Shown in pieces: positions 9,097 through 35,665 of a DNA stretch of 35,665 nucleotides (position 1 is its first letter; each line of letters begins with the position of its first letter). Origin of the DNA: Clostridia bacterium (GTDB lineage Bacteria > Bacillota > Clostridia > Clostridiales > Clostridiaceae). The notes below the pieces were generated by a model that was not told the DNA's origin, did no database searches, and worked only from the letters and a program-made list of their open reading frames with translations. A program made the translations under genes and the position numbers. Location: the NCBI GenBank assembly GCA_012523855.1, contig JAAYTB010000022.1, positions 1 through 35,665 of the forward strand, in the 5' to 3' direction.

Positions 9097-11091
9097 CTAA
9101 CTATTATTAATTTTCTTTTTCATTTTCCTTAATTCAAAAATTTTATCTCTAAGCTGGGCCGCTCTTTCAAATTGAAGCTCCTTAGAAGCTTCCCTCATTT
9201 CTCTTTCATATTTCTCTAAAGTCTTTTCTATATTTTCCACTGTTGCTTCCAAGGCCTCTTCCATGGAGCCATACTCTGCTCCTTCCTCAGAAACAGAGGA
9301 AATTTCAATTATATCTCTAATCTGCTTAGCTACAGTTTTTGGGGTTATACCATGTTTCTTATTGTAGTCCATCTGAATTTCTCTTCTTCTATTGGTCTCA
9401 TCAATAGCTCTTTTCATAGAATCTGTAATCACATCAGCGTACATTATAACCTTACTTTCACTATTTCTAGCAGCTCTACCAATAGTCTGTATTAGAGAAG
9501 TTTCAGATCTTAAGAAACCTTCCTTATCAGCATCTAATATTGCAACTAAGGCAACCTCTGGAATATCTAATCCCTCTCTTAAAAGGTTTATACCTACTAA
9601 AACATCAAAATCCCCTTTTCTAAGGTCACGAATAATCTTCATTCTATCAATAGTATCTATATCAGAATGTAGATAGGTTGTTTTTACATTTAGATCCTTT
9701 AAGTATTTTGTTAAATCTTCAGCCATTCTTTTAGTCAAGGTAGTTACTAAAACTCTAAAGCCCTTATCTATAGTCTTTTGAATATTTCCATAAAGATCAT
9801 CTATCTGTCCCTTAACTGGATTAACGATAATCTCAGGATCCAAAAGTCCTGTAGGCCTTATGATTTGCTCTGCCACCACAGTAGAATGTTCTAATTCATA
9901 CTTGGAAGGAGTAGCACTAACAAAAACCACCTGATTAATTTTCTTTTCAAACTCATCAAATTTTAGAGGCCTGTTATCAAAGGCTGAAGGTAGCCTAAAA
10001 CCATAATCCACCAAGGTATTCTTTCTTGAACGGTCACCAGCATACATAGCCCTAACCTGAGGCAGGGTAACGTGGCTCTCGTCTATAAAGAGCAAAAAGT
10101 CCTCCGGAAAATAGTCTATTAATGTCTTAGGGGGGGTTCCAGGATCTCTACCATCCATTATTCTAGAATAATTTTCAATACCACTGCAGTAACCAACTTC
10201 CCTAATCATTTCAATATCGAAATTAGTTCTCTGCTTGAGCCTTTGAGCTTCTAAAACCTTATCCTCCGCCATTAACTCCTTTAATCTTTCTTCTAATTCC
10301 GCCTCTATCATTTTAATAGCTATCTCCAACTTCTCCCTTGAAGTAGCAAAGTGAGAGGCCGGAAATATTTGCACATGCTTTAAATCCTTCAAAAGTTCAC
10401 CAGTTAAAATGTCAAACTCTCTTATCCTATCTATTTCATCGCCAAAGAACTCCACCCTAATTCCTCTACTATTAGAATCAGAAGGAACAATATCCAATAC
10501 ATCTCCTCTAACTCTAAAGGTTCCTCTATGGAAATCTATCTCGTTTCTTTCATACTGTATTTCTACTAGTTTCTTGATAATTTCGTCCCTATCCTTTATC
10601 ATACCCTGTCGCAGAGATATAGTTAAGTTTTTGTATTCTTCTGGATTACCAAGTCCATATATACAGGAAACAGAAGCTACTATTATAACATCCCGTCTTT
10701 CAAAAAGAGCTGCTGTGGCAGAGTGCCTCAACCTTTCAATTTCATCGTTAATAGAAGCATCCTTCTCTATAAAGGTATCAGTCTGAGGAACATATGCCTC
10801 TGGCTGATAATAATCATAATAAGATACGAAATATTCCACTGCACTGTCCGGGAAAAATTCTCTAAACTCAGAACAAAGCTGTGCAGCCAAAGTTTTATTA
10901 TGGGCCAATACCAAAGTTGGTTTTTGTACCCTTTCAATAATATTAGCCATGGTAAAAGTCTTCCCAGAACCGGTAACACCTAATAAAGTCTGACCCCTAT
11001 TTCCTTTTTCAATAGCTTCCACCAGCTTATCTATAGCCTGAGGCTGATCCCCTGTAGGCTTAAAAGCGGACTTAATTTTATATTGTCCCAT
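9097..11091 (-). CDS. uvrB: Excinuclease ABC subunit B (UvrB)
   Basis: UvrB is the helicase-like subunit that verifies DNA damage and recruits UvrC. The 664-residue product shows Walker A GVTGSGKT at 38-45, the damage-verifying beta-hairpin region ([12 protein letters not shown] near 92-103), the FIDESH motif II, helicase motifs V and VI ([14 protein letters not shown] and QTIGRAARN), and a C-terminal UVR domain ([18 protein letters not shown]) that contacts UvrC. Length is normal. GGAGGGGAAAAG precedes the ATG. A LexA-type box lies about 100 bases upstream, so this gene and uvrA are likely induced by DNA damage. Identification is secure. Confidence 0.98.
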
Positions 11092-16121: not shown

Positions 16122-17378
16122 CTAATTTCTTACATAGTATGGTGATGGATCTATAGTTTCACCATTAGGTTTTCTTATTTCAAAATGCAAATGAGGCCCT
16201 GTGGATACACCACTATTTCCTGATTTAGCAATAAGTTGTCCACCTTTAACATACTGGCCTTCCTCTACTAGCAAGGTTGAGTTATGAGCATATAGGCTTA
16301 TTATATCTCCATGATGTATGAGAATTACGTTACCGTAGCCACTCATATAGCCAGAAAATATTACTTGTCCATCTTTCAAGGCATATAAAGGGGTTCCTGA
16401 ATAAACACCTATATCCATACCAGCATGAAATCTATATGTATTTAATACTGGATGAAATCTAGTGCCGTAAGAAGAGGTTATTCGATATGGAACTCCAGTT
16501 ACACGGTATAGTTTCCCTTTACTTACTATTCCTTGATCTTTGTCTTCCTTTTTATCATCCTCTTGACCTTGACTTTTACCATCTGCTTTAGCCTCCGCTT
16601 CAGCCTTGGCTTTAGCCTCCGCCTCTGCTTTAGCCTTAGCTTCTGCTTCCGCTTTAGCTCTTAGATATTCTAGATTCTTAATCTTTTCCTTTAAGGCTTC
16701 AGCGTCCTTTTCTTCTTGTTCTATAAGCTTTAGATAGCTTTCCCTATCTTCTGAAAGCTTGTCCATTAACTCCTTTTTCTCAGCACTTTGACTATTTAAT
16801 TGTGCCAATTTCGTAGAATTATCCAGCTTTATCTTTTCAAGTTCTGCCTTTTTATTTTCCAAGTCCTTCCTAGTCTCTTCTAGTTGCTTTTTATTTTCTT
16901 CCATCTTAGCAATTAATTGCTTATCGTTACTAATGATTCTTTCAACATAAACAGCCTTATCAACCATATCAGCAAAGTTTTCAGAAGAGAAAATTATATT
17001 TATAAATCCGATGTTTCCCTTCTTATACATAACTAATAAACGATGATCTAAAAGCTCTTCCTGTTCTTCTATCTCCTTGAGCTTAGCATCTATTTCTCCC
17101 ACAAGCCTTTCAACATCCTCATTAGTAGTATTTATTTGAGCTGTTAGTTTCTTTATTTCTCCAGTAAGCTGATTCATCTTATTTTCCAGATCTTTAAGTT
17201 GCTTTTCAACTATTTTTTGCTCCTCTTGAATATCATCCAACTTTTCCTTATTTTCGTTAATTGATTGATTTGCATTATTCAATTGATTCTTTGCGTCATT
17301 TAATTGATCTGCTAAAACTGTGGTCGTAATATTTAAAAATATAAGTAAAGATACTATGACACTAATCAATTTTTTCAT
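16122..17378 (-). CDS. Secreted coiled-coil M23 peptidase, EnvC/PcsB-like FtsEX partner
   Basis: This is a secreted peptidoglycan hydrolase or hydrolase activator controlled by FtsEX. The 418-residue product has a signal peptide (MKKLISVIVSLLIFLNITTTVLA), a long coiled coil (about 24-245) with a hydrophobic break (GNIGFINIIFSSENFADMV) as in PcsB, an Ala/Glu/Lys-rich low-complexity linker, and a C-terminal M23 (LytM) domain. The zinc ligands are present in HAGMD and GPHLHFE, so the domain is probably active, unlike E. coli EnvC. Translation is placed at the ATG at 17378 behind AGGTGGAAAAG; the frame is open to 17405. It follows ftsX by about 115 bases, most of them taken up by a long hairpin. 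Confidence 0.9.
   Translation of the reverse strand: MKKLISVIVSLLIFLNITTTVLADQLNDAKNQLNNANQSINENKEKLDDIQEEQKIVEKQLKDLENKMNQLTGEIKKLTAQINTTNEDVERLVGEIDAKLKEIEEQEELLDHRLLVMYKKGNIGFINIIFSSENFADMVDKAVYVERIISNDKQLIAKMEENKKQLEETRKDLENKKAELEKIKLDNSTKLAQLNSQSAEKKELMDKLSEDRESYLKLIEQEEKDAEALKEKIKNLEYLRAKAEAEAKAKAEAEAKAKAEAEAKADGKSQGQEDDKKEDKDQGIVSKGKLYRVTGVPYRITSSYGTRFHPVLNTYRFHAGMDIGVYSGTPLYALKDGQVIFSGYMSGYGNVILIHHGDIISLYAHNSTLLVEEGQYVKGGQLIAKSGNSGVSTGPHLHFEIRKPNGETIDPSPYYVRN
16584..16657. repeat. Ala/Glu/Lys-coding tandem repeat
   Basis: About three imperfect 24-base units encode AEAEAKAK-type octads in the linker between the coiled coil and the M23 domain. Such repeats expand and contract by slippage; here the frame is intact. 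Confidence 0.7.
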
Positions 17379-17420
17379 CTTTTCCACCTCATATAATTTT
17401 ATCAATCTATGTAGATCTAA

Positions 17421-17493: not shown

Positions 17494-18390
17494 TTAAACA
17501 ATTAAGAATTTTCTTAAAGCAATAATACTACCTACAGCACCAATGCACATACCTGCAATAGCAAAGCTCCAGGATAAATGAGTGGTTACATATGAAGATG
17601 CCACAACATCAATAGCCATCAAAGAACCCTTGGTTATGCTTTTAACAACATAGTCATAAACTACCTTAAGTATTCCTGTAGATATAAGTGCTCCGATCAA
17701 TCCTATAACTATACCTTCAATAATAAAAGGCCATCTTATAAACCAATCTGTAGCACCAACAAACTTCATAATACCTACTTCTCTTCTTCTTGAGAAAACT
17801 GTCTGCCTTATACTGTTTACTATTAGGAAGAGAGAAACCCCTCCAAGCAATAGGAACATAAATACTCCAACCCATTTAAGAGTTTTTGAAATATTTATTA
17901 TGGCTTCAATAGTTGGTCTATCATTACCAACATCGTCTACACCATTCATATCCTTGAATTCATCTTCGATTTGGTTTGCAGCTTCAACAGTCTTAAGATG
18001 TACATCGTAGGATTCTGGAAAAGGATGACTTTCTTTAGTGTAGCCACTTAATACTTGCTGGTAATCTTCTCCCATCCTCTCCTTCATTCTATCAAAGGCC
18101 TGATCTTTAGTTACATGTTCGAATCTTTCTACACTGCTATTATCTTTTAATTTATTTTCTATAGCTGCCTTTTCCGTAAATGAGATATCTTCTTTCAAAA
18201 ATATAACTACTTGAACTTTGTCCTCTAGATCTCCCATAAGCTTATTGGCATTACCCATCAACAATAAAAAGGTTCCAAATATAAACAATGTTGCAGCCAC
18301 TGTCATGATACAAGCAAAACTCATAGTGAAATTTCTTTTCAAACTCTTAAATGCATCTGCAAAAAAGTGTCTAAAGGTACTAATCTTCAT
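17494..18390 (-). CDS. ftsX: Cell division ABC transporter permease FtsX
   Basis: FtsX is the membrane subunit of FtsEX, which does not transport a solute but passes ATP-driven movement to peptidoglycan hydrolases outside the cell. The 298-residue product has the family pattern: a first membrane segment (about 22-46), an extracellular domain of about 120 residues (47-168) that binds the hydrolase partner, then three segments in the C-terminal FtsX/MacB-type domain (about 170-195, 222-245, 270-292). The motif SRRREVGIMKFVGATDWFIRWPF is characteristic. It begins within the last codons of ftsE (11-base overlap) behind AAGGGGGAG, showing translational coupling. Confidence 0.95.
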   Translation of the reverse strand: MKISTFRHFFADAFKSLKRNFTMSFACIMTVAATLFIFGTFLLLMGNANKLMGDLEDKVQVVIFLKEDISFTEKAAIENKLKDNSSVERFEHVTKDQAFDRMKERMGEDYQQVLSGYTKESHPFPESYDVHLKTVEAANQIEDEFKDMNGVDDVGNDRPTIEAIINISKTLKWVGVFMFLLLGGVSLFLIVNSIRQTVFSRRREVGIMKFVGATDWFIRWPFIIEGIVIGLIGALISTGILKVVYDYVVKSITKGSLMAIDVVASSYVTTHLSWSFAIAGMCIGAVGSIIALRKFLIV

Positions 18391-19066
18391 AGCCGTATCT
18401 CCCCCTTGTCTCGTCTCTTGCTATTACACCTTTTTCTATAGCTACAACTCTCTTTTTCATACTGTCAACAATATCTTTAGCATGGGTAGCCATAAGGATT
18501 GTTGTACCTGCTTTATTAATATCATCTAAAGTTCTCATAATTTCCATAGCTGTATCTGGATCCAGATTTCCTGTAGGCTCATCGGCAATAAGTAGGGATG
18601 GATTGTTTACAAGAGCCCTTGCCAGAGAAACCCTCTGCTGTTCTCCACCAGATAGTTCATTAGGAAACTGCTTAAACTTTGAGGATAGACCTACCATGGA
18701 CAAGGCCATAGGTACTCTCTTTCTTATATCCCTATAAGGTGCTTCAATAACCCTCATGGCAAAAGCAACATTTTCATAAACACTTAAAGTTGGTATCAAT
18801 CTAAAATCCTGAAAAACCATTCCAATTTTTCTTCTATAGTAGGGCAATTCTTTTCTCTTCAATTCGTTTACTACTGTTTTACCTAATCTTATCGTTCCAG
18901 ATGTGGTTTCTACCTCTCTAAGCAACAATTTAATAAAGGTTGACTTTCCGGCACCGCTTGGACCAACTAAAAATACAAATTCGCCCTTTTCGATCTTTAT
19001 ATTTATGTTACTTAAGGCATACTGTTTATTATCATAAGTTTTACTAACATCCTTAAATTCAATCAT
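18380..19066 (-). CDS. ftsE: Cell division ATP-binding protein FtsE
   Basis: FtsE is the ATPase of the FtsEX complex at the division site or sidewall. The 228-residue product has Walker A GPSGAGKST at 35-43, the Q-loop MVFQDFRLIPTLSVYENVAFAM, signature LSGGEQQRVSLARAL, Walker B LLIADEPTGNLDP and the switch histidine in LMATHAKDI. FRLIP together with the neighbouring ftsX separates it from other small ABC ATPases. The ATG is preceded by AGAAGGGA. It heads the operon ftsE-ftsX-M23. A TATAAT lies on the - strand near 19120 but without a convincing -35. Confidence 0.96.
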   Translation of the reverse strand: MIEFKDVSKTYDNKQYALSNINIKIEKGEFVFLVGPSGAGKSTFIKLLLREVETTSGTIRLGKTVVNELKRKELPYYRRKIGMVFQDFRLIPTLSVYENVAFAMRVIEAPYRDIRKRVPMALSMVGLSSKFKQFPNELSGGEQQRVSLARALVNNPSLLIADEPTGNLDPDTAMEIMRTLDDINKAGTTILMATHAKDIVDSMKKRVVAIEKGVIARDETRGRYGYED

Positions 19067-29484: not shown

Positions 29485-30414
29485 ATGGCTTTTTGTGCAA
29501 ATTGTGGCGCTCAGATGGCTGATGGGGACAAGTTTTGCGGAAATTGCGGAACTACTCTAGCAGCTGAAAATTCAGCTCCACAACAAAACTTTCAACAAAA
29601 TGTACAACCTAACGTACAACCTAATGTACAACAGAATTTCCAGCAAAATGTACAACCTAACTTTCAAAATCAGCAGGCTCCAAACTTTGGTCCTGGCCCA
29701 GGTCAACAGCAGTATGCACCACAGGGTCCATCAAATTTTTCAATAGCTATGGAGGAGTTAGGTAAGGAAGTATCTGCTTTCTTTAAGAACCCTGTAGCTG
29801 CTATTAGTAAAGTAAAATTCCAAATGTCTTCAATGGCTACATATCTCTTTGCTGGCCTAATGACATTGATTCTAATATTACTTAACTTCTGGAGTGCAGC
29901 GCAAAACTTGGCACTAGTAGGTGCTGCAATTACTACCATAGAAGATGCTTTTTCATCTGTTTTTGGTGGCAATGAAAAAGAGACCTTATTTGATATTGGC
30001 TACGGCAAGATCTTCCTTGCTTCATTCTTCTTTGTAATAGTTATGTTAGCGGCTCTTTGGGGACTAAGCTTATTAGTTAACTCTGTTATGTTGAAGGGTC
30101 AGTTTAATGCTGTACAGGCTCTAAATGTGGTGGTTTTCGCAGCTATACCTTATGCCCTTCTATCAATAGTATCAATAATTTTTGGCTATGTTGAAGCAAA
30201 TTTATCTTATTTGATTTATCTAGCTGGAATAATGGCTTCAATCATATTGTTATATAAGGCTATCAGCAGTAACATTAACAAGGCTGAATCTTCTGCCTTA
30301 TACAGTTTCTTAGTAATACCTGTAGCTCTTTACTTCGTAAACTTCCTTTTCTTTAAAGTTGCAGGAGCTGAAGTTGCTATGTTCTATAACGGAATATTTA
30401 TGGGAATAAACTAA
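29485..30414 (+). CDS. Zinc-ribbon polytopic membrane protein with Q/N-rich linker
   Basis: The 309-residue product starts with a zinc ribbon (CANCGAQM...FCGNCGTTL, residues 4-25, two CxxC pairs), followed by a Gln/Asn/Pro-rich linker (about 30-83) built of VQPN-type repeats. Residues about 119-300 then carry five or six membrane segments, in a layout reminiscent of Yip1-type membrane domains. There is no enzyme motif. A strong GGAGG precedes the ATG, and a terminator follows the stop. It faces the - strand permease operon, whose zinc-ribbon protein has a similar N-terminus and a low-complexity linker. Function is unknown; a regulatory or scaffold role in the membrane is only a guess. Confidence 0.8.
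   Translation: MAFCANCGAQMADGDKFCGNCGTTLAAENSAPQQNFQQNVQPNVQPNVQQNFQQNVQPNFQNQQAPNFGPGPGQQQYAPQGPSNFSIAMEELGKEVSAFFKNPVAAISKVKFQMSSMATYLFAGLMTLILILLNFWSAAQNLALVGAAITTIEDAFSSVFGGNEKETLFDIGYGKIFLASFFFVIVMLAALWGLSLLVNSVMLKGQFNAVQALNVVVFAAIPYALLSIVSIIFGYVEANLSYLIYLAGIMASIILLYKAISSNINKAESSALYSFLVIPVALYFVNFLFFKVAGAEVAMFYNGIFMGIN
29580..29670. repeat. Tandem coding repeat of the Q/N-rich linker
   Basis: Imperfect 12-15 base units around GTACAACCTAA(C/T) encode VQPN and FQQN steps. The copies are nearly identical, which suggests recent slippage expansion. Confidence 0.7.
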
Positions 30415-30421
30415 GTAAGTA

Positions 30422-30463
30422 AAAACACCTATTGCTATCAACTTTTGAAGCAATAGGTGTTTT
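30422..30463. terminator. Bidirectional terminator between converging genes
   Basis: A perfect 15-base stem (30422-30436 with 30449-30463), with T-rich tails on each side, separates the + strand zinc-ribbon gene from the end of the - strand permease gene. Confidence 0.9.
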
Positions 30464-30471
30464 CTATTCTT

Positions 30472-31752
30472 TTATTTTCTATAAATAAGCCTTGCAGGCA
30501 CAATGAATATCCCTGCCATAGCAAGAAGAACCAGGAGATTTGGAAGTATACTAGAAAAAGTGCCACTAAATAAAATAATCTCAGATAATCCATTATGAAC
30601 CCAATAGGTAGGCATAAATATAGCAATATCCTCCATAGCTGCTGGCATCAGTTCCAAACTATATACGCAGCCAGACAAGATTCCCATCATAAGGACCATC
30701 ACTGGCATAAAACTTTGAAAGGAAATATGGTTTCTAAAGATGGAGGCTATCAAAACAAGCATTGATGCAGCAGTAAATATATAAAAGACCATTGTTAGGC
30801 CTACTAACAAAATACCACTTAGGGACATACCTTCAAAGACCGGATACATCAAGATAAATTGAAGGAAGGTTATACTTATCCCTGCTATAGTTACGGAAAA
30901 AATATCTGCAAATAAAAGTTTGAAAGGAGCTACACCTGCTAGCTTTATCCTGCTTCTAACTCTATTTTCTCCTTCCTTTATAAGAATGCTACATCCTGTT
31001 AGCATAAAGATTGTAGAAAATATCACTATAAGGCCTAATCCCATGGAAATGGCGAAAATATCTCCATCTTCCTCTTTTTCATCTACTTCACTGACATTAG
31101 GTGTTCGTAGATCAGCTATCACTGGCAACTGAAAACTAGGATCCTGGTCAAGGTCTTTTAACCTCTTGCTTATAGCCTCTTCAATTATAACATATTCCTC
31201 CTGAGCTAGCTGCTTTTGTCCATCAATTATAACTAAATACTTGCAAACATAGGGAACTATTTCCCCGGCAATTATATCACTGACACCCATGGCAGTTAAG
31301 CTGCCAGGAACAGTATAAACAGAAACTATATTCTCATAATCTCCTTCTCTTATCCTCTTTTCCATTCCCTCTTCAAAAATATAAACCGCCTGGACCTTTT
31401 CCTTGGAAATGTACTCCTCTATCTCCTTCTCCCCAATAGTCTTCATAGATATGGCAGAATTGGCCCCTATCTTCTTAATAATCTCAGAAGAAAATTCAGA
31501 TTCATCTCTATCAATAACTCCAATAGGCACACCTTGATAAAAGGTCTTTTTCTGAAAAATTTTATTAACCAACATGGAGAAAAATAAGGGCAACAATATG
31601 CATAACAAAATAAACAACTTGTTGCGATACATTAACCTTAGCCGGTTTTTAACTATAGGCAAGACCTGAGATCTTGAAGGCTTAATTTCAATGAAGTTCT
31701 GTGAACCGTCCCCCATATTTTTAAAGTCGAGAGAACCGTCCCTATTATTCAT
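30472..31752 (-). CDS. ABC-2 type transporter permease (second of pair)
   Basis: The 426-residue product has the ABC-2 exporter layout: one membrane segment (about 45-65), a large outer domain (about 66-225), and five membrane segments in the C-terminal part (about 228-422). The outer domain contains the typical GVIDRDESEFSSEII and the C-terminal half SILIKEGENRVRSRIKLAGVAPFKLLFADI. The ATG overlaps the previous gene's stop as ATGA, so the two are translationally coupled. The first 22 codons contain two GGGACGGTTC repeat-like motifs and look grafted onto the conserved part, which begins near KPSRSQVLPIVKNRLRLMYRNK. Substrate unknown; no ATPase gene is in the window. Confidence 0.88.
   Translation of the reverse strand: MNNRDGSLDFKNMGDGSQNFIEIKPSRSQVLPIVKNRLRLMYRNKLFILLCILLPLFFSMLVNKIFQKKTFYQGVPIGVIDRDESEFSSEIIKKIGANSAISMKTIGEKEIEEYISKEKVQAVYIFEEGMEKRIREGDYENIVSVYTVPGSLTAMGVSDIIAGEIVPYVCKYLVIIDGQKQLAQEEYVIIEEAISKRLKDLDQDPSFQLPVIADLRTPNVSEVDEKEEDGDIFAISMGLGLIVIFSTIFMLTGCSILIKEGENRVRSRIKLAGVAPFKLLFADIFSVTIAGISITFLQFILMYPVFEGMSLSGILLVGLTMVFYIFTAASMLVLIASIFRNHISFQSFMPVMVLMMGILSGCVYSLELMPAAMEDIAIFMPTYWVHNGLSEIILFSGTFSSILPNLLVLLAMAGIFIVPARLIYRK
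31701..31746 (-). repeat. Two GGGACGGTTC repeat motifs in a permease start
   Basis: On the - strand AGGGACGGTTCTCTCGAC (about 31729-31745) is followed by GGGGGACGGTTCAC (31702-31715), about 27 bases apart. They encode DGSLD and DGSQN near the N-terminus. The phrase resembles short palindromic repeats dispersed in clostridial genomes. Confidence 0.5.
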
Positions 31753-32990
31753 GACCTCACCGCCTTTCGGAGTCGTAAGTAGGATATAAATATTAACAGT
31801 AGGGAAATTCCAGCCAAGGAATAGAGTGTAAGCTCAAGTTGACTAATGGCTAATAGGCCAGTAGCACCACCAGTGCTGTAACTCATCATATAGAGGCTAG
31901 CTCTTATAATCCAATAGTTTGGAGTTAAAGCTGCTAGTTTTTGTATTTCAAGTGGCATTAGCTGCAAGGGTAGGAAGCTACCTCCTGCTAGGGCACAGAT
32001 AAATACAAATATATTGCCTACTGCCATAAATACCTCTTCTTTTCGGAAAAATGTTGCTAGGAATATGAAGATGCTGTTTATGAAAAAGATATCCAGCCAC
32101 ATGTATAGTATAATTTTTACTATTAAGTCTTGGTGGAAGGCTTGAAAAAATAGCACCACTGGCAGTATAAAGATAATCATTTGAACTGCTCCGTAGATGG
32201 AGAAGGATATCCATTTGCTTAATAGTACAGATAGGCTTCCTGCGGGACTAGTCACTGTTCGTTTTAGACAACCGCTGTTAATTTCCTTTATTAAGTGGTT
32301 TCCTGAGCTAACCCCATTGTACATTAGCAACAAGACCAAAATAGCTACAATGAAATATTCTGCTGAACTAGAAGAAGGTATGGAGTTTATCTTCTTTTCC
32401 TGAAAGAGATCTCCTCGGGTTAGGGCAGCTAGTATTAATTGAAGTGACATATTTTCGTTAATGTCCTCCAATTCACTTTGGCTGAAATCATATTCCTCTA
32501 GGTAGTCTATGTAGGCTACAATGGATTTTTCTACAGAAGATACATAAACCCCATAGCTTTCCATCATGTTTTTAAGGACAGAGCTTTTCAGAGACTCCCT
32601 CTTGTTTAAGATAATGTTTATTGGATAATTTTCAATATACACAAGGCTTTTAGAAAAGTCTTCAGGTATGATGATTATACCCATCAGTTGATTTTCCTTA
32701 AAGCTTTCCTCAGCCGCCTCCTCCTTCATGGTTTTAATGTTTACCATCTTGGAAAAGGATTTATTGCCCTTGAAGTTATTAATAAGCATCCTGCTTAGGA
32801 CACTGTTTTCCTTATCCACTACTGCCACATTCATTGGTGAAATATCCGCTTCCCTACTCATCATATCGGAAAAGATAAAGGCAAAAATTCCGTATAATAA
32901 AAATGGAAGACACAAATGGGCAATAATTGCCCACTTATGTCTTAATATAAGCTTTAAGTCCTTTTTAATTAACTTCGTTAGTTTAATCAT
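31749..32990 (-). CDS. ABC-2 type transporter permease (first of pair)
   Basis: The 413-residue product has the same layout as its downstream partner: a short cytoplasmic start (IKKDLKLILRHKWAI), membrane segment about 22-41, an outer domain with VAVVDKENSVLSRMLI and GIIIIPEDFSKSL, and five further membrane segments (about 213-410). INSGCLKRTVTSPAGSLSVLLSKWI is the usual cytoplasmic loop. Such proteins pair to form the channel of an ABC exporter of drugs, lipids or glycans. The start has only AAGGAT. It follows the zinc-ribbon gene by 25 bases, in one operon. The ATPase is not encoded between the promoter and terminator of this unit. Confidence 0.88.
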   Translation of the reverse strand: MIKLTKLIKKDLKLILRHKWAIIAHLCLPFLLYGIFAFIFSDMMSREADISPMNVAVVDKENSVLSRMLINNFKGNKSFSKMVNIKTMKEEAAEESFKENQLMGIIIIPEDFSKSLVYIENYPINIILNKRESLKSSVLKNMMESYGVYVSSVEKSIVAYIDYLEEYDFSQSELEDINENMSLQLILAALTRGDLFQEKKINSIPSSSSAEYFIVAILVLLLMYNGVSSGNHLIKEINSGCLKRTVTSPAGSLSVLLSKWISFSIYGAVQMIIFILPVVLFFQAFHQDLIVKIILYMWLDIFFINSIFIFLATFFRKEEVFMAVGNIFVFICALAGGSFLPLQLMPLEIQKLAALTPNYWIIRASLYMMSYSTGGATGLLAISQLELTLYSLAGISLLLIFISYLRLRKAVRS

Positions 32991-33015
32991 AATATGCAGA
33001 TCCTTAAATTAATTT

Positions 33016-34572
33016 TTAAAAGCCAAGGTTCAAGTTGTTCATAAAGAGGTTTTCTAGATTTTCTTGTATTTCACCCATAAGGCTCATAGCCTGAAAATCA
33101 TCCATTTCTGCTAAGTTAATACCGCCTTCTGTAGATAGTTTTTCGATAACCACGTCCTTGTCAAAGGCATTGAAAGTAACCTCTATTGAAATTGAACCTG
33201 TAGTGCCATATCCACCAACCATGTTTCCAGCACCATCTCCTAAGTCAAATTCATAAAGAAGCTGTCTTAGTCTGTCCTTTTCATCTATTCTTACTGTTGC
33301 TTTAGATTTGAAGTTTAGACCTTCCAATTCCTCTTCCTCAAGCTCCTCAATGGCAGACTTTAGTTCTTCCATGGCATCAGCCCAATTTTCATCGAAATTG
33401 GCCATGAATTCTTCATATTCATCCAAATCATAATCTACCTTATCTAAGTATCCACTTTCATCTGCAACTTCTATGAACTCAGGTAGCTTTTTCTTTACTA
33501 AGGCTTTAAGTTCCTTATCTTGAGAAACTTCTTTTAAGAAACCTATTGCTACAGTATTTATAAAGTTCTCATCTATAGTTATAGCTATTTCATCACAGCT
33601 TACCTTTTTATTCTTACCACCTTCTACAACTGATACATCAACCTTACCATTGTCCTTGATGAATTTATTTAAATTTTTCTCAAAGAATTTCTGGTAATTC
33701 TTTTTAACAGCTTTAAAGTCTTTGTCATTTTCAATTTTCTTAGCAAAGTCATTGTAAACTTCTAAATCTAGGGCAGACGCACCAGATGTAATAGTTTCTA
33801 AGTCCAAATCAGATGCACCATACATTAAGTCATTTAAATCATCTAGATCGATATATAGTGTGTCTCCAAATAATTCATCGGATCTTACTATTAGTACCTC
33901 TTCATCAAGGTAGGCACTTACAGTAGCAAGACTTCTATCTTTATAGTGTACTCCTATATCAAAAGCACCAGTTTTGCTTTCCTTGTCGCCTTTTGTGCCA
34001 ATAACAAATGACAAATCTTTAAGTAGTGCTCCTTGTGCGCCATCTGCATCTATCTTTATTTTCGCATTCATATCAAGAGCCTTATAGTCAGCTATTTTAC
34101 TTACAGCTTTCATAGTTCTCTTAACAGGATTAGCCTTTGCTATAATTGGCTTTAATACTGCAAAATATAATCCAACTAAAGCTGCTACTACAACTAACAC
34201 GGCAGTTATACCAATGAATACTGGTTTCTTAGACTTTGGCATCGGTGAAGGCTGTCCCATTGGAGATGGCTGTCCCATATTGTTGAAACCACCATTATTA
34301 GGATTGCTAGCGAAACCATTGTTAGCATTAGGCCCAGCATTATAATAGCCAGTATTTCCTCCGTTATTATAACTTTCATATCCAGTATTTGCAGTATTGC
34401 CAAAACCATCATTGGCAAAACCAGTGTTACTATTGTTGTAATCTTGAGTATAATCATACTGCTGTGTTGTCTCTATAGTTTCATTAGCTTGTTGACTGCT
34501 TTTTACGTGGCCACAAACAGTACAAAATTTAGCCCCTGCTTCTAGCTGAGCGCCACATTTTTCACAAAACAT
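33016..34572 (-). CDS. Zinc-ribbon, single-pass membrane protein with large outer domain
   Basis: The 518-residue product begins with a zinc ribbon (CEKCGAQL...FCTVCG, residues 3-21), followed by an Asn/Gly/Tyr-rich linker (about 25-112). One membrane segment (about 117-140) leads to an outer domain of about 375 residues. That domain has lipoprotein-like beta patterns (KALDMNAKIKIDADGA, DRSLATVSAYLDEEVLIV, DTLYIDLDDLND) and a very acidic helical part (EELKSAIEELEEEELEG). It resembles other zinc-ribbon proteins of clostridia with LolA/LppX-like outer domains, without a known function. AAGGGGGA precedes the ATG. Its promoter is TTGAAA-17-TATAAT. It is first in an operon with two ABC-2 permeases, so a sensor or periplasm-like accessory role is possible. 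Confidence 0.85.
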   Translation of the reverse strand: MFCEKCGAQLEAGAKFCTVCGHVKSSQQANETIETTQQYDYTQDYNNSNTGFANDGFGNTANTGYESYNNGGNTGYYNAGPNANNGFASNPNNGGFNNMGQPSPMGQPSPMPKSKKPVFIGITAVLVVVAALVGLYFAVLKPIIAKANPVKRTMKAVSKIADYKALDMNAKIKIDADGAQGALLKDLSFVIGTKGDKESKTGAFDIGVHYKDRSLATVSAYLDEEVLIVRSDELFGDTLYIDLDDLNDLMYGASDLDLETITSGASALDLEVYNDFAKKIENDKDFKAVKKNYQKFFEKNLNKFIKDNGKVDVSVVEGGKNKKVSCDEIAITIDENFINTVAIGFLKEVSQDKELKALVKKKLPEFIEVADESGYLDKVDYDLDEYEEFMANFDENWADAMEELKSAIEELEEEELEGLNFKSKATVRIDEKDRLRQLLYEFDLGDGAGNMVGGYGTTGSISIEVTFNAFDKDVVIEKLSTEGGINLAEMDDFQAMSLMGEIQENLENLFMNNLNLGF

Positions 34573-34624
34573 TGTTTATCCCCCTTAAAATTATTGAAAA
34601 AATTAGTAAATCCATATAAACAGT

Positions 34625-34653
34625 ATTATACGATAAAATATATAACTTTTCAA
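34625..34653 (-). promoter_or_regulatory. Sigma-A promoter of the zinc-ribbon/permease operon
   Basis: TTGAAA (34648-34653) and TATAAT (34625-34630) are exactly 17 bases apart on the - strand, about 50 bases before the start of the zinc-ribbon gene. Confidence 0.75.
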
Positions 34654-34654
34654 T

Positions 34655-34672
34655 CATTATTTATAAATAATG
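34655..34672. promoter_or_regulatory. Perfect 18-base palindrome abutting the -35
   Basis: CATTATTTATAAATAATG is fully self-complementary. It ends one base before the -35 of the zinc-ribbon promoter and begins three bases after the transglutaminase stop. It could bind an activator or repressor, or act as an AT-rich UP element. Confidence 0.5.
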
Positions 34673-34675
34673 CTT

Positions 34676-35665
34676 TTATTTGTATTTTATTTCACAGGTA
34701 AAAACCAGTGTATTAGGATCGTAACTATAGGAATATTCGGGTTTTACATAATTTATCTTATTATCCATCACAACATTATGAATAGCAGAATAAGTATAAA
34801 CTTTAGGGTCATAACTAGTGGTCTTTATCATTATATTTTCCTTCTTATCCACTAAGCCCTTCTTTATTATGTTACAAAATTCATCATAATCCTTTGATAC
34901 TAGCTTATTAACATTGAAATAATTGGCCTCTGTAGCAGTTGCCGCAGGGTAAGCAGCCTTATTCCAGCTATGATTCCTAGCAATTTCCTTATCTGTCACA
35001 TTAAAATACTCATAGCTTAATACATCTCTTCTATCGGCAGTAACAGGGTCGTTAAAAGTAGCGTCTAGATGATAGTACTTTCCTCCTATTTTCACTAAGT
35101 TCCAAGCATGATTATCCCCATTAGCCTTTCCTGTCACAATATGGGCCTCTATACCAGCCTTATTAAGAAGCCTGTACATAACTTCCGCATAACCAGAACA
35201 CACTGCCCTCTTGTTTACCAAAAGCCCATAAGCAGTATAAGAATCCCCAGGCACTGTATTCCTTCTATAGTTCTCATAATCATACCTTGTATTATTTACA
35301 ATATAATCATGTAGGGCCAGTTCCTTCTCATAATCAGACATGCCACTCTTAACTACAGTAGCCACAATGGAATTAACCTTCTCATTTACATATCTATACT
35401 TCTTAAGGAATCCCTCTTTCCCATCTACATAATTGAAAATTATTTTTGCCTTTCTACCATTTAAGCTGTAGGACACATTTTTTACATATCCCCCAAAACC
35501 ATACTTTTCCGCAACCTGCAAGGCCATTTCTCCTAATTCATCCATACTTATACCATCAGCAATAGTCACCTCTGTATCCTTAGCCAAGGCTACATTTGTC
35601 TTTAAAAGTTCTTCCAGCTTAGCCCTGTCATAGGCACTATTAGAACTTATACTCCCAGTTGAAGG
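34676..35665 (-). CDS. Transglutaminase-like (Cys-His-Asp) domain protein, 5' end missing
   Basis: The frame is open to the window edge, so the true start lies outside; at least 329 codons are visible. A transglutaminase-like fold is shown by the triad Cys (NKRAVCSGYAEVMYRLL), His (NGDNHAWNLVKI) and Asp (YYHLDATFNDP). It is preceded by the helical ELALHDYIVNNTRYDYE segment typical of bacterial surface transglutaminases. The start of the visible part (PSTGSISSNS...) looks like a low-complexity linker after a signal or membrane segment, which would be encoded beyond the window. A TTG near 35587 is not a likely start. Such proteins are usually proteases or cross-linkers at the cell surface. The zinc-ribbon operon follows. 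Confidence 0.88.
   Translation of the reverse strand, partial: PSTGSISSNSAYDRAKLEELLKTNVALAKDTEVTIADGISMDELGEMALQVAEKYGFGGYVKNVSYSLNGRKAKIIFNYVDGKEGFLKKYRYVNEKVNSIVATVVKSGMSDYEKELALHDYIVNNTRYDYENYRRNTVPGDSYTAYGLLVNKRAVCSGYAEVMYRLLNKAGIEAHIVTGKANGDNHAWNLVKIGGKYYHLDATFNDPVTADRRDVLSYEYFNVTDKEIARNHSWNKAAYPAATATEANYFNVNKLVSKDYDEFCNIIKKGLVDKKENIMIKTTSYDPKVYTYSAIHNVVMDNKINYVKPEYSYSYDPNTLVFTCEIKYK

Follow-up and report, generated by a model that had tools for sequence, protein, structure and literature searches.

An ATPase-less ABC-2 permease operon with a zinc-ribbon ectodomain protein in Clostridia: a predicted exporter that may be energised in trans

SagG/H/I-like and DrrAB-like exporters combine a pair of ABC2_membrane_3 permeases with DrrA-type ATPases. 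ATPases serving several transporters from a distance are known from type I sugar importers, where MsmX and MsmK energise transporters devoid of an ATPase of their own; such sharing was called uncommon by the authors (PMC7658222). For ABC-2 exporters, searches of the open-access literature turned up no such sharing. The operon described here, ZnR-PermA-PermB, has the same type of permease pair as the SagG/H/I-like and DrrAB-like exporters and, unlike them, no ATPase gene in cis. It lies in a stretch of 35 665 bp (the window), which is a whole contig of a draft genome (G000; 2.41 Mb in 196 contigs).

The operon and its neighbours

All ORFs of the group named in the preliminary description (ZnR, PermA, PermB, TG and ZnYip) were confirmed at the positions given there. 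The operon occupies the minus strand and consists of three full-length ORFs: ZnR (33016-34572), PermA (31749-32990) and PermB (30472-31752), the last two overlapping by 4 bp. The promoter and terminator said to enclose just these genes are both real. The promoter (34653-34625, minus strand; TTGAAA-17-TATAAT, core TATCGTATAAT) is among the two best matches of the region, and its core upstream of ZnR is identical across four congeners (the window genome and three others). The bidirectional hairpin between PermB and ZnYip (30422-30463) has a folding energy of -23.9 kcal/mol (z -7.5; no shuffle was equally good). A search against Rfam gave no match. A terminator was looked for between TG and ZnR and was not found; read-through from TG is thus possible.

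PermA and PermB match ABC2_membrane_3 (PF12698) with E-values of 3e-37 and 6.5e-37 (128-129 bits; cut-off 31.6); no sequence relatives of PermA were found in PDB. ZnR begins with a zinc ribbon (Zn_Ribbon_1, 30.7 bits; Pfam cut-off 25) whose cysteines C3, C6, C17 and C20 form the motif CX2CX10CX2C, a spacing that binds zinc in two membrane proteins of Lactococcus (PMC4628341). The ribbon is followed by a low-complexity linker, one transmembrane helix (residues about 119-141) and an ectodomain of 380 residues, which matched no family of Pfam or NCBIfam; a search of PDB for sequence relatives of ZnR was likewise negative.

Structure prediction of the outer domain, suggested earlier as a check, was carried out. 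Two AlphaFold2 models, each poor (mean pLDDT 47 and 52), were built from three sequences. LppX was the top Foldseek match of the full-length low-confidence model (E 3.5e-5), ahead of DUF1329 and LolA3; the ectodomain-only model, also of low confidence, had no match under 0.001. VIA-align with the latter model gave top rows occupied mostly by LolA/LolB/LprG/LppX/RseB-type folds at Z 5-8, the best value of 8.0 being near background. On these low-pLDDT models, a LolA/LppX-like half-barrel lipid-carrier fold is likely but unproven for the ectodomain core.

Among 206 genomes of the family, ZnR was found in five, four of the genus (the window genome, Clostridium sp. N3C, UBA3947 and G003) and one of another genus (G446). 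Three congeners have the whole locus on a single contig, and all of them keep the order ZnR-PermA-PermB><ZnYip-BrkB; in the fragmented G446 genome the operon is distributed over two contigs (L073 and L210). As the preliminary description had it, no ATPase gene belongs to the operon: none lies adjacent to it or near it in any of the five genomes, and in N3C, UBA3947 and G003 the flanks of the locus, each about 5 kb or longer, are free of one. An ATPase gene just past position 35665, upstream of TG, had been envisaged; UBA3947 and N3C have none at the syntenic position, and the candidate that emerged is a solitary gene elsewhere in the genome (see below). Nor is the operon part of an ordinary complete exporter running beyond the window, as it is ATPase-less in the relatives too.

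In G003, the ZnR gene (L017, 9355-10824) has one in-frame TGA, which could reflect decay or an assembly error, and at the C-terminus of PermB (L017, 13240-13350) short GGTGCTGCG-type repeats replace the conserved end.

ZnYip (29485-30414, plus strand), the second zinc-ribbon membrane protein said to converge on the group, combines Zn_Ribbon_1 with a Yip1-like membrane domain (sub-threshold match) and is linked to the operon in 5/5 genomes; the linkage makes it a candidate for a role in the system. The architecture common to the group is confined to the zinc ribbon, present in both ZnR and ZnYip; the remainder of the two proteins is not shared. No homology was found between ZnYip and the membrane protein encoded 3' of PermB in the complete operons of G198 and G068 (hhalign probability 0.1%).

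Conservation of the neighbourhood, which was to be checked for four gene families, holds for the operon with ZnYip and fails for the transglutaminase-like TG (34676-35665, minus strand; Transglut_core, E 6e-15). The window being the entire contig, TG is truncated and its 5' end is missing; in UBA3947 the protein is a lipoprotein. TG adjoins the operon in the window, UBA3947 and G446 and is missing beside it in N3C and G003. With 3/5 genomes we rejected it as a core part; it is probably a loosely linked, variable neighbour. The window also encodes FtsE (18380-19066) and FtsX (17494-18390) and, after this pair, an M23-type peptidase (16122-17405). FtsE, the sole ABC ATPase found in the window by profile search, is 12 kb from the operon and, being paired with FtsX, was rejected as a partner.

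Complete homologous loci in Clostridia

A class-level search with PermA found homologues in 23 other genomes, and the neighbourhood of all 23 was read. Of the 22 resolved loci, 21 have a DrrA-type ATPase gene adjoining PermA-PermB (the exception is G346; one more locus is cut by a contig end). Fourteen of the class-level loci also encode, by the permeases, a large single-pass ectodomain protein, which in six of the 14 carries the same zinc ribbon. Profiles made from eight of these proteins matched the ZnR profile at E 1e-13 (98%) and 6e-25 (99.6%), so ZnR is homologous to them; two groups of the ectodomain proteins match each other at E 8e-39. For the outer part, no Pfam family scored above cut-off in the nine ectodomain proteins scanned (G446 ZnR included), and no NCBIfam model was found in the two scanned.

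Since the homologous PermA-PermB pairs mostly stand with an ATPase and, in 14 loci, with an ectodomain protein of the ZnR type as well, ZnR-PermA-PermB is, judged by homology, the ATPase-less form of an undescribed four-part ABC-2 exporter of Clostridia. The operon had been put forward as a candidate for an undescribed system; this is correct for the four-part exporter and for the ectodomain family, both undescribed, while the system as a whole derives from ABC-2 exporters and stays within known biology.

A solitary DrrA-type ATPase as possible partner

We built an ATPase profile from eight complete loci and searched five genomes with it. The top-scoring ATPase in three of them (the window genome, N3C and UBA3947) has no permease beside it and lies in the order unknown protein - M50 peptidase - ATPase - TrmB; in the window genome (G000:C55) it scored 1e-78 against 1e-63 for the next. 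Relatives of this ATPase are mostly found in operons of the type sensor kinase - regulator - ATPase - P1 - P2, with P1 and P2 being permeases. TrmB directly follows P2 in G009, G018, G016 and G003. Four genomes, namely the window genome, N3C, UBA3947 and G446 (where the contig ends just past the M50 gene), have kept the ATPase but lack the kinase, the regulator, P1 and P2. The five-gene exporter itself (L201, L203, L197) is conserved in the family, often between the M50 peptidase gene and trmB. Upstream of the M50 peptidase, where the contig allows, we observed a fast-evolving single-pass protein of 349 residues (L147 8828-9877 and relatives; family unknown), with 24-38% identity outside three close species.

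P1-P2 follow the ATPase in all 24 resolved loci (21 genomes) of genomes without ZnR-PermA-PermB. Loss of P1-P2 was thus seen in four of five genomes with the operon versus 0 of 21 without it (Fisher p 0.0003 if genomes are taken as independent; they are related). Both one loss event and two fit the data (p-AU 0.26), so the number of events behind the association is small. In the ATPase tree, the four solitary copies group together (90/50). All their catalytic motifs are intact, and dN/dS among three congeners (window genome, N3C, UBA3947) is 0.06-0.11, like that of TrmB. The solitary clade is separate from the ATPases native to complete PermA-PermB operons, with no close kinship. A single residue, at position 230, is common to the four solitary ATPases and absent elsewhere; they therefore have no docking signature. 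The fifth genome, G003, keeps P1-P2; its TrmB-locus ATPase gene (L197, about 9315-10250) has a frameshift near residue 92, which again could be decay or an assembly error. In G003 both members of the proposed partnership, ZnR and the ATPase, are affected in this way.

The exception in the class-level search is G346, which belongs to another family and is assembled as a single contig. Its PermA-PermB pair lacks an ATPase gene and is accompanied by two Gate-domain genes and a lipoprotein of 370 residues (L080 4328-8924). When G346 was searched with the ATPase profile, a solitary DrrA-type ATPase again came first (2e-91; next 2e-67); it adjoins a gene read by eye as asparaginyl-tRNA synthetase and branches elsewhere in the ATPase tree, not close to that of the window genome. 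G346 is one case, which chance might also produce. The G346 lipoprotein is weakly similar to ZnR (probability 29%), and the outer protein resembles that of the complete operon in G299 (25% identity).

We propose that ZnR-PermA-PermB would be an ABC-2 type exporter that has lost its own ATPase gene. PermA and PermB, as members of their family, would form the membrane channel. ZnR would be a dedicated ectodomain subunit with its zinc ribbon in the cytoplasm, one membrane helix and, as the low-confidence models suggest, a LolA/LppX-like domain outside, which may accept or hold a hydrophobic, probably lipid-like substrate; the direction is presumably outward. ATP hydrolysis would be the task of a DrrA-type ATPase acting in trans, for which the solitary ATPase at G000:C55 is the likeliest candidate. 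This ATPase is no longer accompanied by its two permeases and its two-component regulator and has stayed intact (deletion and conservation are observed), and its pairing with the operon is predicted. In G003, where P1-P2 are kept, the ATPase, frameshifted in the assembly, would need to serve both systems. We give about even chances to an exporter energised in trans, most probably by the solitary ATPase. The fuller reading, offered tentatively and at somewhat less than an even chance, is that two crippled ABC systems (a lipid-handling exporter without ATPase and an ATPase without permeases) have been joined from distant loci as one working transporter, which would include a LolA/LppX-like zinc-ribbon subunit from a family not yet described.

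The permeases could instead be powered in trans by one or more ATPases borrowed from complete exporters, with the solitary ATPase serving something else. The window genome holds several other DrrA-type ATPases, and sharing does exist among sugar importers (PMC7658222). G003 has a complete ATPase-P1-P2 operon plus the ATPase-less pair, so sharing would be needed there if the system works. Still, we hold this explanation unlikely: in the window genome, a permease gene adjoins each of the other ATPases with high scores, and the best-scoring one is solitary and strongly conserved despite having no known partner.

A second explanation, to which we also assign a low probability, is that PermA/PermB and ZnR make up a receptor, scaffold or sensor that works independently of an ATPase and signals through the cytoplasmic zinc ribbon. 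It would agree with the lack of a linked ATPase in all five genomes and with the effect on cell-wall integrity of Llmg_0524, a CX2CX10CX2C membrane protein of Lactococcus (PMC4628341). However, the ATPase-docking (coupling) loops, conserved glutamate-to-arginine stretches around KEINSGCLKR in PermA and KERENRVRNRIK in PermB, persist in the ATPase-less clade, where G446 shows minor changes, and they align with those of complete operons. Together with purifying selection (dN/dS 0.10-0.13 for PermA, 0.10-0.16 across PermA and PermB), the retained loops argue for ATP-driven work. Moreover, zinc-ribbon ectodomain proteins occur beside complete, ATPase-containing operons as well, and the zinc-ribbon form is therefore no marker of ATPase-free function. 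A decaying exporter remnant, to which the in-frame TGA and the frameshift in G003 (possibly assembly errors) might point, is very improbable given the promoter, terminator, gene overlap and reading frames conserved in other genomes and the low dN/dS of both permeases.

Comparison with known systems

The closest relatives of the operon are the clostridial ATPase/ectodomain/PermA/PermB loci (such as G198 L075, G068 L076 and G120 L079), which have a homologous ectodomain protein, PermA and PermB, and in some cases the same zinc ribbon; they differ in the ATPase gene beside the permeases. Similarity to the SagG/H/I-like and DrrAB-like exporters is more distant: the permeases score 81 and 41 bits with the SagH model (NCBIfam NF038293), far under its cut-off of 450, and the ATPase falls somewhat under the curated DrrA cut-off (291 vs 312 bits).

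Other known proteins resemble ZnR in part. TcaA of Staphylococcus has, like ZnR, a cysteine motif, a transmembrane helix and a long outer part; its model (NCBIfam NF053815, cut-off 550 bits) does not match ZnR and matches ZnYip in the ribbon only (14.7 bits). Llmg_0524 and Llmg_0526 of Lactococcus have the same zinc-binding CX2CX10CX2C motif (PMC4628341). Unlike ZnR, neither TcaA nor the two Lactococcus proteins are described with a permease operon. With the LolA/LolB, LppX and LprG superfamily, the ZnR ectodomain core likely has its predicted fold in common; ZnR differs by the transmembrane tether to a zinc ribbon, by a long helical insert and by the lack of detectable sequence similarity. 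The ectodomain family defined here is uncharacterised and has no model in Pfam or NCBIfam; it is found with such exporters throughout Clostridia and, if the fold is correct, may carry lipids at the Gram-positive cell surface.

The solitary ATPase resembles the multitask ATPases MsmX and MsmK (PMC7658222) in being free-standing, intact and without permeases of its own, whereas the transporter it would serve is an ABC-2 exporter rather than a type I sugar importer. If the proposed pairing is true, the ATPase sharing known from sugar importers would also apply to ABC-2 exporters, and the genomes with ZnR-PermA-PermB would offer a view of evolution in progress, in which two broken transport systems exchange partners.
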